Of a stretch of 64,000 bases of DNA, positions 2,959 to 36,968 are shown piece after piece (the stretch's first letter is position 1; every line of letters begins with the position of its first letter). The notes beneath the pieces were generated by a model, which was given only the letters and a program-made list of their open reading frames with translations, was not told the DNA's origin and ran no database searches. The translations under genes and the position numbers were made by a program. This DNA comes from Deltaproteobacteria bacterium (GTDB lineage Bacteria > Desulfobacterota > Desulfobulbia > Desulfobulbales > Desulfurivibrionaceae): positions 39,121 to 103,120 of the forward strand of contig JAJZRO010000005.1 of NCBI GenBank assembly GCA_021802645.1, written 5' to 3'.

Positions 2959-3915
2959 ATGAAGATCGAACGACGCGATTTTCTCAAGGGGGCGCTCGGT
3001 GGCGGGCTGTTGCTGGCGGCGGACGCCAAGCCGGCGGCGGCCCGGCATGTTGCCAAGGAACTGCCGCCCAATGCCGTGGGGATTCTTTACGACGCCACCC
3101 TGTGCATCGGTTGCCAGGTGTGCGTCGGTGCCTGCAAGCAGGCGAACAACATGCCGGTCGAGCATACCGCCGGGACCGATCCCCTCTGGGAGAATCCGGA
3201 GGATCTCTCGGCCAAGACCCTGAACATCATCAAGAAGTACGGCAGCGGCGATTACCCGGTCAAAGACACGGTGGCAGGCTACTCCTTTGTCAAACGCCAC
3301 TGCATGCATTGCCTCGATCCGGCCTGTGTTTCGGCCTGCCCGGTCTCGGCACTCCGGAAAAACTCCGATAACGGGGTGGTGACCTACGACAAGACCGCCT
3401 GCATCGGCTGCCGGTACTGCCAGGTCGCCTGCCCGTTCAACATCCCCAAGTTCGAGTGGCTCTCGGCCACGCCGCGGATCGTCAAATGCCAACTCTGTTC
3501 GCACCTGTTGGCCAAGGGCGGCATCTCCGCCTGTTGCGCCGCCTGCCCGACCGGTGCCTCGCTCTTCGGCCGGGTGGAAGACCTGCGCCAGGAGGCGAAG
3601 CGGCGGCTGGCCATGACCCCGGGCGACAGTTACGACTTCCCGGTCGCCTCCCTGGGTTCGAAGGAGTTCCAGTCGCACAAGGCCGGTCACTACATCCAGC
3701 AGATTTATGGCGAGTCCGAGGTGGGCGGCACCCAGTATATGCTGCTGGCCGGGGTGCCGTTCGACAAGCTCGGCCTGCCGACGCTGCCGGACGAATCCTT
3801 CGTCGCCCTGGCCGACGGTATCCAGTATGCGATCTACAAGGGCATGGTCTACCCGCTGGTGGTGCTGGGCGGGCTCATTTACATGATCCGCAAGGGCGAA
3901 GGCGACAAACACTGA
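2959..3915 (+). CDS. hybA: Hydrogenase-associated periplasmic 4Fe-4S ferredoxin subunit
   Basis: A 318-residue electron-transfer subunit that links HybOC to the quinone-reducing HybB. It has a Tat signal (ERRDFLKGALGG, Arg5-Arg6) and four cysteine clusters typical of DmsB/NrfC-like ferredoxins: CIGCQVCVGACKQ, CMHCLDPACVSACP, CIGCRYCQVACP and CQLCSHLL...CCAACP. A C-terminal hydrophobic helix (VYPLVVLGGLIYMI) would tether it to the membrane, as in E. coli HybA. The ATG at 2959 follows AGGAGGTG; an upstream in-frame start at 2872 lies inside hybO and is rejected. Confidence 0.95.
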   Translation: MKIERRDFLKGALGGGLLLAADAKPAAARHVAKELPPNAVGILYDATLCIGCQVCVGACKQANNMPVEHTAGTDPLWENPEDLSAKTLNIIKKYGSGDYPVKDTVAGYSFVKRHCMHCLDPACVSACPVSALRKNSDNGVVTYDKTACIGCRYCQVACPFNIPKFEWLSATPRIVKCQLCSHLLAKGGISACCAACPTGASLFGRVEDLRQEAKRRLAMTPGDSYDFPVASLGSKEFQSHKAGHYIQQIYGESEVGGTQYMLLAGVPFDKLGLPTLPDESFVALADGIQYAIYKGMVYPLVVLGGLIYMIRKGEGDKH

Positions 3916-31612: not shown

Positions 31613-33649
31613 TTACTTCTCTACCCCATCCATCCGGGCGCCGGTGAAGTTGGCGCCGGTGACGTCGGCGCCAGCCAGGGAGGCGTTGCGCAGATCGGCG
31701 CCGGTGAAGTTGGCGTTTTTGAGGTTGGCCTTGTAGAAGTCCGCATCCTTCAGATCCGCCCCGGCAAAGTTGGCGCCTTCCAGGTTGGCGCCCTTGAAGT
31801 TGGCGTTGGCGAGCTTGGCGCCAAGGAAGTTGGCGTTGACCAGGCTGGCCCGCTCAAAGAGGGCGTTGGCGAACTTGCCGTCATGGAGATCGGCAGCGGC
31901 GAGATCGCAGTCGGCGCAGCGGTTGGTGGTCCGCAGCCGTTCCATCGGGGTCAGCGCGGATTTGGCCGGTGGTTGTTCGACGGCCCCCTGCGGCGGGGCG
32001 TTGCGTACCAGGGTCGGCTCCGGCGGTACCGTCGGCGCGGGTTGCGGTGTTGGCGCGGTTGCGGCGGCCGGTTGCGACGGGGGATTCAGCGGCTCCTCTT
32101 CACCCAAACCGGTGGGCGACGGCGCGGGCTGGCCAGCGGGGGCGGGAGCTCCCGCCGACGGGGTGGCGGCAGGGGCAGGGGCCTGGGCCGTCGGCGGCGT
32201 CGGGGTGGTCGGGGCGGATGGTGGCACCACCACGGGCACCTGCGGTTCGGCCGCCGCGGTTGTTGCCGCTTGCTGCTCGCCAGTGGGCGCTTCCTCCGGC
32301 GTGCTCCCGCGGAAGAGCGAAGCCAGATCGGCTTGCTTCTCTCCCGGTTTTTTAGCCTTTTGGGGGTGGGGTGTGCGGGCGGCGGCCTCTTCGGCTGCCC
32401 AAGGCGATTTTGGCCGTTCGAGAGGGGTGCCAGCCAGATAGGCGCCGGCCAATTCGGCGCCGTCGAGTTTGGCCCCGGTCAGATTGGCCTGGTAGAGGTC
32501 GGCACCGGCGAGATTGGCGCCGGTGAGATCGGCACCGCTCAGGTTGGTACGGGCCAGTTCCGCGATCCGCAGCATGGTCCCGGCGAGATTGGCGCCGGTG
32601 AGATTGGCGCCGGTGAGGTCGGCCCGGTCGAGGACGGCCTTGGAGAGATCGACGCCGGTAAGATTACAGCCGGGGCAGGAGTTGGTGGCCCGCAGCCGTT
32701 CCAGCGGCGTGGCGAAGTCCTTGGCCGCTGGCGGGGGTTGCTGCTTCACCTTCCGTTGGGTACCCTCTCGGGACGTTTTTGGTTGGGCCTGCGTCTGGGC
32801 CTCGCCAGGCGCGTTTTCGTCCACCAGCGGCCTTGGAGGCGGCGGCGAGGTCGGCACCTTGGCGGCGGTGGCGGCGGCCACTGGCGCCGCCGGGGCCGTC
32901 GCTTCACCTGCCGTTGACGGCACCGCCGCTTCGGTTGGCGGCGTTGACGGCGGTGGCGCCGGCGGGCCGGCCGGGGCTGACGTGGCCTTGGGCTGGGCGG
33001 GAGGTGACGGTTTCGCCTCAGAGGCAGAGGCGAGCGGTTCTTCGGTAATGGGAACGGCAGGCGGGGCGGCCGTTGTCGCGGCGACCGCCGACGTTTCGGT
33101 AGGGGTTGCTGCCAGGGATTCTTCCGGTGCTCCGGCTGCGGGCCCGGGGGCAGTGGGTGTCTTGGGTGGGGCAGGGGCGGCAACCGCGGCCGGCGGCGGT
33201 GTCACTGGCGCCGGGGGCGGTGGCGGCGGGGGAGCATAGACCGCGGTGCGATTGGCCTCGCTGTAGTTGCTGCCATCGAAGGCGGTATCCTTGAGGGTCG
33301 CCCCTTTCATCACCGTGTCGGTGAGGTCTGCGCGGTAGAAATCGGCGTCGGTCAGATCGGCATCCGCGAGGTTGGCGCCGATGAGTTTGCTCCCTTTCAG
33401 ATTGGCCCCTTCGAGATCGGCGCCCCCGAGATTCGCATAGGAGAGGTTTGCCCGCTCCAGCTGGGCGTTTTTGAGCTTGGCCTTGGTCAAGTCGGCATAG
33501 GAGAGGTCGCATTCGACGCAGCGATTGGTCGTCTGCAACCGTTTGAGATCCTCGGCCTTGAAGGCCAGGGCCTTGGGCACCGCAGCGCCGACCAGCAGCA
33601 GGCCGGCACAGAGAGCGAGAGTGTGTTTGCGGTACGCCTTTGGCTGCAA
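31613..33649 (-). CDS. Exported three-block pentapeptide-repeat protein with Pro/Ala linkers
   Basis: A 678-residue protein. It starts with TTG (33647-33649) after AGAGG, then has a signal peptide (YRKHTLALCAGLLLVGAAVP). Three similar modules follow. Each opens with a Cys-pair motif (TTNRCVECDL ~41, ATNSCPGCNL ~330, TTNRCADCDL ~590) and continues into A(D/N)LxxAxL pentapeptide repeats that should form a right-handed quadrilateral beta-helix. The two linkers, ~150-200 residues each, are Pro/Ala/Thr-rich and look disordered. Function unknown; the design suggests an envelope scaffold. Each Cys pair may cap a helix or bind metal. Confidence 0.88.
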   Translation of the reverse strand: MQPKAYRKHTLALCAGLLLVGAAVPKALAFKAEDLKRLQTTNRCVECDLSYADLTKAKLKNAQLERANLSYANLGGADLEGANLKGSKLIGANLADADLTDADFYRADLTDTVMKGATLKDTAFDGSNYSEANRTAVYAPPPPPPPAPVTPPPAAVAAPAPPKTPTAPGPAAGAPEESLAATPTETSAVAATTAAPPAVPITEEPLASASEAKPSPPAQPKATSAPAGPPAPPPSTPPTEAAVPSTAGEATAPAAPVAAATAAKVPTSPPPPRPLVDENAPGEAQTQAQPKTSREGTQRKVKQQPPPAAKDFATPLERLRATNSCPGCNLTGVDLSKAVLDRADLTGANLTGANLAGTMLRIAELARTNLSGADLTGANLAGADLYQANLTGAKLDGAELAGAYLAGTPLERPKSPWAAEEAAARTPHPQKAKKPGEKQADLASLFRGSTPEEAPTGEQQAATTAAAEPQVPVVVPPSAPTTPTPPTAQAPAPAATPSAGAPAPAGQPAPSPTGLGEEEPLNPPSQPAAATAPTPQPAPTVPPEPTLVRNAPPQGAVEQPPAKSALTPMERLRTTNRCADCDLAAADLHDGKFANALFERASLVNANFLGAKLANANFKGANLEGANFAGADLKDADFYKANLKNANFTGADLRNASLAGADVTGANFTGARMDGVEK

Positions 33650-35866: not shown

Positions 35867-36335
35867 GGTGCCCTCCTCTGTCGGGGGTGTCCGCTTATCT
35901 TTTCATATCACGGAACCAGCCTGAACGCAATTTCTCCCAGGAATATGGGAAGATGGCCGCCAACCCCGGATGAGTATCTACCGCTATGTGGTGCTTTTTG
36001 TTGCCCCCCTCTTCCTGCGTCGAGGAATAAAGACAAAGGGAGGGGGAGGCGGAACTGCCGATTGGCCTGGCTAATCGGCCGGCGGCCAGAGGTTTCGTAC
36101 TGTTGACTCCGGCCAGGGGTGTTGCCGGAGGCGTTGCTGGAAAAGGCCGACAAGGCCCTTTACCGCGCCAAGGCTCAGGGCCGCAATCAGGCGAGCACCG
36201 TTTAAGGACTTTGCTGGTTTGCTTTCCTGTCCTGTGATATGAAATAGAGAAGGCGTTTTGTTATCTCCCCAATCTGCCTGCCGAGTTGACGGGAGAAGCG
36301 GAGAAACCTGAAACCACCACCAGGAGGTAATGCCC
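35867..36335. other. Intergenic region with a GGDEF relic
   Basis: A 469-base gap between the divergent GH15 and selenoprotein genes. It contains a 7-bp hairpin (GCCGATT 36057-36063 with AATCGGC 36073-36079), the GGDEF remnant described separately, and a weak GATATG-type -10 before the selenoprotein. No intact gene is seen. Confidence 0.5.
36107..36205 (+). pseudogene. Remnant: C-terminal end of a GGDEF (diguanylate cyclase) domain
   Basis: Reading from 36107 after an in-frame stop gives LRPGVLPEALLEKADKALYR followed by AKAQGRNQASTV and a TAA at 36203-36205. LLEKADKALYRAKAQGRN is the nearly universal end of GGDEF domains. The first ~140 residues of the domain, including the GGDEF loop, are missing from the DNA just upstream. 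So this is the tail left by a deletion or rearrangement and cannot be active. Confidence 0.75.
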
Positions 36336-36905
36336 ATGACCGCGACGATTGCGTGGCTCACCAAGATGGACGAGGCCCAGGCCCAGGCCAGGAAGGAAGG
36401 CAAGCCGATCCTGCTCGATTTCTTCAACCCTGGCTGAATTGGCTGCCAACAGATGGATGCAGTTACGTATCCAGACGCCAAGGTTATCACCTTTCTCTCC
36501 ACGCATTTTGTGCCGCTTCGCGTCCAGTTCGACGCCCAACCCTATGCCACCGACTTCAACGTCAAATGGACGCCGACTCTGGTCACCGTTGGTTCTGACG
36601 GCAAGGAGCACCATCGTACCGTCGGCTTTCTCGCGCCGGATGAACTGATCCCTTCCCTGCTGCTCGGTGAAGCGAAATATCACTTCGATAACGACCGCTT
36701 CGAGCCGGCGCTCAAGTGCCTCGGAGAGGTGGCGAGCCAATACGGCAGCAGCGACTGCGCGGCGGAGGCCCTCTTCCTTACCGGTGTCTGCCAGTATAAA
36801 AGCACCCACGACGCCAAGCCGCTCAAGGCCGCCTATGAGAAGCTCGTTGCCAAATTCCCGCACAGCGAGTGGACCAAGCGCGCCTATCCGTACCGCCTGC
36901 TGTGA
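36336..36905 (+). CDS. Selenocysteine-containing thioredoxin-fold protein (in-frame UGA, UxxC)
   Basis: A 189-residue protein if TGA at 36435-36437 is read as selenocysteine 34. The frame is open on both sides and gives DFFNPGUIGCQQMDAVTYPD: a thioredoxin redox site with Sec in place of the first Cys of CxxC (U34-I-G-C37). Thioredoxin-fold residues continue past it (KWTPTLVTV, with the cis-Pro, then GFLAPDELI). The C-terminal ~70 residues form a TPR-like helical part. The start has AGGAGG eight bases upstream. Calling genes without UGA recoding gives only a truncated product from 36453. It probably acts as a reductase or peroxidase-type oxidoreductase in the cytoplasm, as there is no signal peptide. 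Confidence 0.85.
36440..36465 (+). promoter_or_regulatory. Candidate bacterial SECIS hairpin
   Basis: Three bases after the UGA, TGGCTGC (36440-36446) can pair with GCAGTTA (36459-36465), with two G-U pairs, around a 12-base loop that contains G residues. Position and size suit a SelB-binding element, though bacterial SECIS have little sequence consensus. Confidence 0.45.
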
Positions 36906-36934
36906 TCCGTTTTCGCAAGGAATGGGTGTAACCC

Positions 36935-36968
36935 GCCGGACGGCCGAACCCTTCGGCTGTCCGGCGTT
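36935..36968 (+). terminator. Terminator-like hairpin after the selenoprotein gene
   Basis: A 14-bp stem with one G-U pair (36935-36948 with 36952-36965, CCC loop) lies 30 bases after the stop. The following GTTGTCATT is only a weak T-tract. Confidence 0.5.

Follow-up and report, generated by a model that had tools for sequence, protein, structure and literature searches.

How does a cell read a UGA codon that falls inside an otherwise open frame, at the active site of the predicted protein? The question is raised by a locus in the window, i.e., the whole 64,000-nucleotide stretch of DNA that was analyzed. The gene lies at 36336–36905 on the plus strand. It is defined by a frame open across the UGA, Pfam domains over their cut-offs, an AlphaFold2 model, and a family alignment, A1. 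A selenoprotein is the best explanation of the locus, and we hold this reading with high confidence.

The Reading Frame and Its Surroundings

The coding sequence extends from 36336 to 36902 and is followed by a TGA stop at 36903–36905. Translation of the frame shows a sole internal stop, the TGA at codon 34 (36435–36437, plus strand). An earlier note had described just such an interrupted frame. It gave the length as 190 codons; the open frame stands, but the product has 189 residues, codon 190 being the stop. The note had also placed the TGA where the first Cys of a thioredoxin CxxC would stand (NPGUIGC), a placement with which frame and homologues agree. Codon 37 (TGC, 36444–36446, plus strand) supplies the second, resolving Cys of the UxxC motif and is invariant in A1. 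The good ribosome site claimed before the ATG is real. That is, a Shine-Dalgarno sequence, AGGAGGT, is found at 36322–36328 on the plus strand, 7 nt upstream. A second in-frame ATG is present at 36330, but it sits 1 nt from the Shine-Dalgarno sequence. Gene calling with table 11 yields either of the two miscalls that the note had predicted, i.e., a truncated 36453–36905 (150 aa) or a wrong-frame 36349–36648 (99 aa).

Just 3′ of the gene, a 15-bp inverted repeat at 36934–36966 can be read from the sequence; it is terminator-like, without a clear T run. Just upstream, a short open stretch at 36126–36203 (PEALLEKADKALYRAKAQGRNQASTV, followed by a stop) resembles the C terminus of a diguanylate cyclase of the GGDEF type and is probably the remnant of a gene. 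At 31613–33649, the minus strand encodes a 678-residue protein in which several pentapeptide-repeat blocks are spaced by long Pro/Ala-rich linkers. The window also holds 215 mechanical candidates for other UGA-interrupted frames. The 25 of these with the strongest folds, inspected by eye, all had GC-rich, wrong-frame-looking translations. A search of a plasmid collection for the selenoprotein gene gave no match.

Conservation of the UGA

Homologues on six named genome contigs are 52–80% identical over residues 1–189, and all have TGA at codon 34. Across homologues at 80–42% identity, the frame is kept on both sides of a TGA at the same codon. In a search of 97 relatives, most carriers had homologues that were full length and contained a single internal TGA. 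In the class sample, 68 of the 70 matches to the family profile above 160 bits have one TGA and two have none; in the phylum sample, 75 genomes have a TGA-bearing member. All 96 fetched loci that were checked have TGA at exactly the aligned codon, a count that includes repeat fetches of one gene and holds 78 distinct 45-mers after the UGA. The UGA is kept at this one codon across many families, and pN is lower than pS upstream of it as well as downstream. The homologue search that the earlier note had called for gives alignments that span the UGA, with U or, in rare cases, Cys in its place. Its worry about a misread base is also answered: the TGA recurs in independent genomes, so it is no isolated error.

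Members lacking the TGA are informative. Cys is found in G196, G207, G534, G271, G372, G602, G620, G447, G469, and G529. Of the 13 distinct homologues in the tree set that lack the TGA, 11 have a Cys codon (TGC/TGT). Two distant TGA-less homologues have Asp or Glu instead, and their subgroup also lacks the second Cys. A divergent set of loci in family f72 (L094–L102) mostly has CxxS, or Asp/Glu, replacing UxxC; the second Cys, sometimes both residues, is lost and the fold is kept.

In the tree, Cys homologues are nested among Sec ones. G534, of family f41, groups as sister to Sec members from that family, and G196 and G207 stand beside one Sec member. At least four changes of the Sec label are required. 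Because most of the tree is Sec, loss of Sec to Cys would be the simplest reading, although this tree has no root and its deep branches are weakly resolved.

One locus, L126 (G010:C12:65377-71565), from a relative in the same family, differs: around position 3007, its TGA is in place and its hairpin looks intact, but the frame is broken by one base a few codons past the UGA. It is either a decaying copy or an assembly error.

A SECIS Hairpin Downstream of the UGA

The earlier note had pointed to a 7-bp hairpin after the UGA, and comparison upholds it through covariation and synonymous-codon constraint. The hairpin (GGAUGC-AGUUAC-GUAUCC; 36454–36473, plus strand) starts 17 nt past the UGA and is 7 bp long in the window, where 36454–36460 pairs with 36467–36473. 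The loop, AGUUAC, occupies 36461–36466, with GU at 36462–36463.

In a set of 41 distinct sequences, pairing is kept in 95.5% of cells, and four of the six stem pairs show changes on both sides, the commonest being A-U to G-C and U-A to A-U. Cells changed on both sides number 15, against 2.9 ± 1.4 in shuffles; in slid controls, pairing drops to 23–64%. RNAalifold predicts the same stem independently. All six pairs are present in 70 of 78 distinct Sec genes, against 6.2 expected from random synonymous recoding that follows the codon usage of each gene, and of these 70 perfect stems 67 have GU at loop positions 2–3; since the sequences are related, these hairpin counts overstate independence. In six of the eight stem exceptions, the fold is in a shifted register and has a four-base loop resembling GGUU, GGUC, or AGUU. 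Three f41 loci (L103, L104, and L110) have a SECIS of another sequence, GAAUACG-GGUC-CGUAUUC; its loop is four bases long (GGUC), and its spacing from the UGA is roughly unchanged.

The codons tell the same story. Those of Val43, Thr44, and Tyr45 write the hairpin loop and the 3′ arm. Ranked by codon constraint among 43 columns, Thr44 is first, Val43 second, and Tyr45 fourth; Thr44 is ACG in 63 of 64. The hairpin is mostly lost in Cys homologues. Among the 13 TGA-less homologues with an intact frame, the six pairs are kept only in G196, the loop of which (AGCCAC) lacks GU.

Folded alone, the window hairpin does not exceed shuffled sequence in stability (z −1.29), and an Rfam scan of the window at the gathering threshold returned nothing. 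The case for a SECIS is thus a comparative one, carried by covariation and codon constraint. Judged by these sequence comparisons, the hairpin is a bacterial SECIS; no other reading explains the counts.

Selenocysteine Machinery

The earlier note had expected selA, selB, selC, and selD, and the genome has all four. The tRNA-Sec (selC) scores 72.7 bits against a cut-off of 47 and has anticodon UCA. The products of selA (636 bits), selB (346 bits), and selD (379.5 bits) all score over curated cut-offs. The selD gene contains one in-frame TGA, at L051:1532-1534 (G-U-A-A-K), in the usual U-A-A-K place. By this token, the genome evidently has a second selenoprotein gene in selD.

In the phylum sample, selA is found in 71 of the 75 UGA-bearing genomes. 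Given a base rate as high as 355 of 395, this co-occurrence is consistent with the selenoprotein reading rather than decisive, and weak alone. The UGA-bearing genomes without a selA match are G404, G262, G298, and G333; the last three are 62–79% complete, and G404 reaches 98%, though split among about 340 contigs. A contrast within f41 says more: among the matches listed there is no selA for G534, which has Cys, whereas all eight f41 genomes with TGA members have selA.

To summarize, it is close to certain from comparative data that the UGA encodes Sec, the incorporation itself being what we infer. In our proposal, SelB would be recruited by the SECIS hairpin that begins 17 nt past the UGA at 36435 and, with GTP and Sec-tRNA, would read that codon as selenocysteine.

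The Protein

PF13098 (Thioredoxin_2) matches with 43.8 bits against a cut-off of 27, and the Thioredoxin_7 and DsbH-type domains of Pfam are also over their cut-offs. TPR_6 reaches 22.2 bits, under its cut-off of 26.3. The AlphaFold2 model (mean pLDDT 95, pTM 0.89) has a thioredoxin fold up to about residue 100, then six helices. Pfam, the model, and A1 together define a DsbD-gamma/thioredoxin-like domain at about residues 1–107 and a TPR-like helical tail at about residues 111–184. The tail has a profile match to the CpoB TPR domain (E 1.3e-8). Residues invariant in A1 include U34, C37, and W78-T79-P80. Pro-80 (codon 80, 36573–36575, plus strand), which belongs to this WTP motif, is at what we take to be the cis-Pro position of the thioredoxin fold. 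No signal peptide was evident on inspection by eye; the protein is therefore probably cytosolic.

Proposed Function and Alternatives

The protein is likely a thiol-disulfide or related reductase, and most likely a cytosolic, selenol-based thiol-disulfide reductase. We suggest that Sec34 would attack a disulfide or other oxidized substrate and that Cys37 would resolve the selenenylsulfide. The TPR-like tail probably positions a protein partner, though any specific partner or a chaperone role is only tentatively proposed. A conserved neighborhood was not found among about 45 loci, the largest shared-neighbor cluster comprising 4 loci. Thus, the context gives no substrate.

One alternative is that the protein is a chaperedoxin like CnoX/YbbN, combining client holding with redox protection, Sec providing oxidation-resistant reductase activity. 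The order of a thioredoxin domain and then TPR-like helices would be shared, and over the full length the structures that match best are E. coli YbbN/CnoX and its Salmonella homologue. Caulobacter CnoX is, moreover, a reductase (PMC6282202). Against this, the model and YbbN superpose loosely (TMq 0.40, rmsd 11.6), YbbN has a far longer tail, and the thioredoxin domain is closer to DsbD-gamma and 2kuc, its best structural matches. We consider this role rather unlikely. A second alternative, which we rate slightly lower still, is that the substrate is a peroxide, methionine sulfoxide, or a metal or oxyanion. Sec in thioredoxin folds serves such chemistry in other families (PMC13188914), whereas the UxxC together with the Trx-type WTP motif points to disulfide exchange, and no conserved gene neighbor hints at a pathway. 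Least expected of the functional readings is a broader one: that this is an undescribed family, widespread in the phylum, in which Sec is usual and probably older, and that the minimal thioredoxin and TPR protein would be a selenol-dependent chaperedoxin of anaerobes. We regard it as a long shot.

Two further accounts concern the UGA itself, and neither is credible. A pseudogene or sequencing error, with the UGA as plain nonsense and at most a truncated protein from the ATG at 36453, would fit the 150-residue table 11 call, and the relative in G010 shows that decay does occur, but this UGA recurs in dozens of independent genomes, selection is purifying on either side of it, and the hairpin covaries; as a general account, the pseudogene or error reading is refuted by the conservation of the UGA. 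Reading of the UGA without Sec, i.e., general recoding to Trp or programmed readthrough, would explain why the frame is open across it, but the gene itself terminates at UGA, the genome has the complete Sec machinery, Cys and never Trp replaces the UGA in most TGA-less homologues, and the hairpin goes together with the UGA.

For the selenoprotein reading, the practical consequence is that, in more than a hundred genomes, standard annotation would truncate the protein and lose the catalytic residue. The family, nearly all members of which have Sec, is also a clean natural set for Sec/Cys exchange. In f41, the one sampled Cys member comes from the genome in which no selA was found, and there the hairpin is lost too.

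Comparison with Known Selenoproteins and Folds

Among the solved structures that best match the thioredoxin domain is DsbD-gamma (E. coli and Neisseria), which has its CxxC at the same place. DsbD-gamma is periplasmic, part of a membrane protein, and uses Cys, whereas the protein described here is free-standing, has Sec, and carries a helical tail. CnoX/YbbN would share the succession of a thioredoxin domain and TPR helices, but, as noted, the overlay is loose, and the tail of the protein described here is much shorter. We take E. coli YbbN to lack the CxxC pair.

Several NCBIfam selenoproteins, i.e., Trx7/PDZ (NF041199), VPGUxxT (NF041382/NF041383), and TsoB (NF045694), are Sec-carrying thioredoxin-like folds with local similarity to the protein, but their Sec motifs and domain partners differ. 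None of the NCBIfam selenoprotein models reaches its cut-off; these three score 23–44 bits against cut-offs of 275–805.

The closest entry on record is a PF13098 UxxC selenoprotein, reported in 2006 (PMC1794560) for Syntrophus aciditrophicus and for two species of Geobacter. A family named 'thiol:disulfide interchange protein' was placed in cd02953 ('Trx-like 2') (PMC2398784). A 2026 inventory, which covers many families, includes the selenoprotein of 2006 as 'thiol:disulfide interchange protein' with PF13098 and UxxC, WP_011366075.1 (PMC13188914); the term 'TPR' is absent from its text. The PF13098 selenoprotein shares with ours the best-matching Pfam domain and the placement of UxxC. Compared by description only, the tail and the NPGUIGC site included, it may be the same family. 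The protein is a genuine selenoprotein, ordinary in mechanism and broadly familiar in type; thioredoxin-like UxxC selenoproteins are an established kind.
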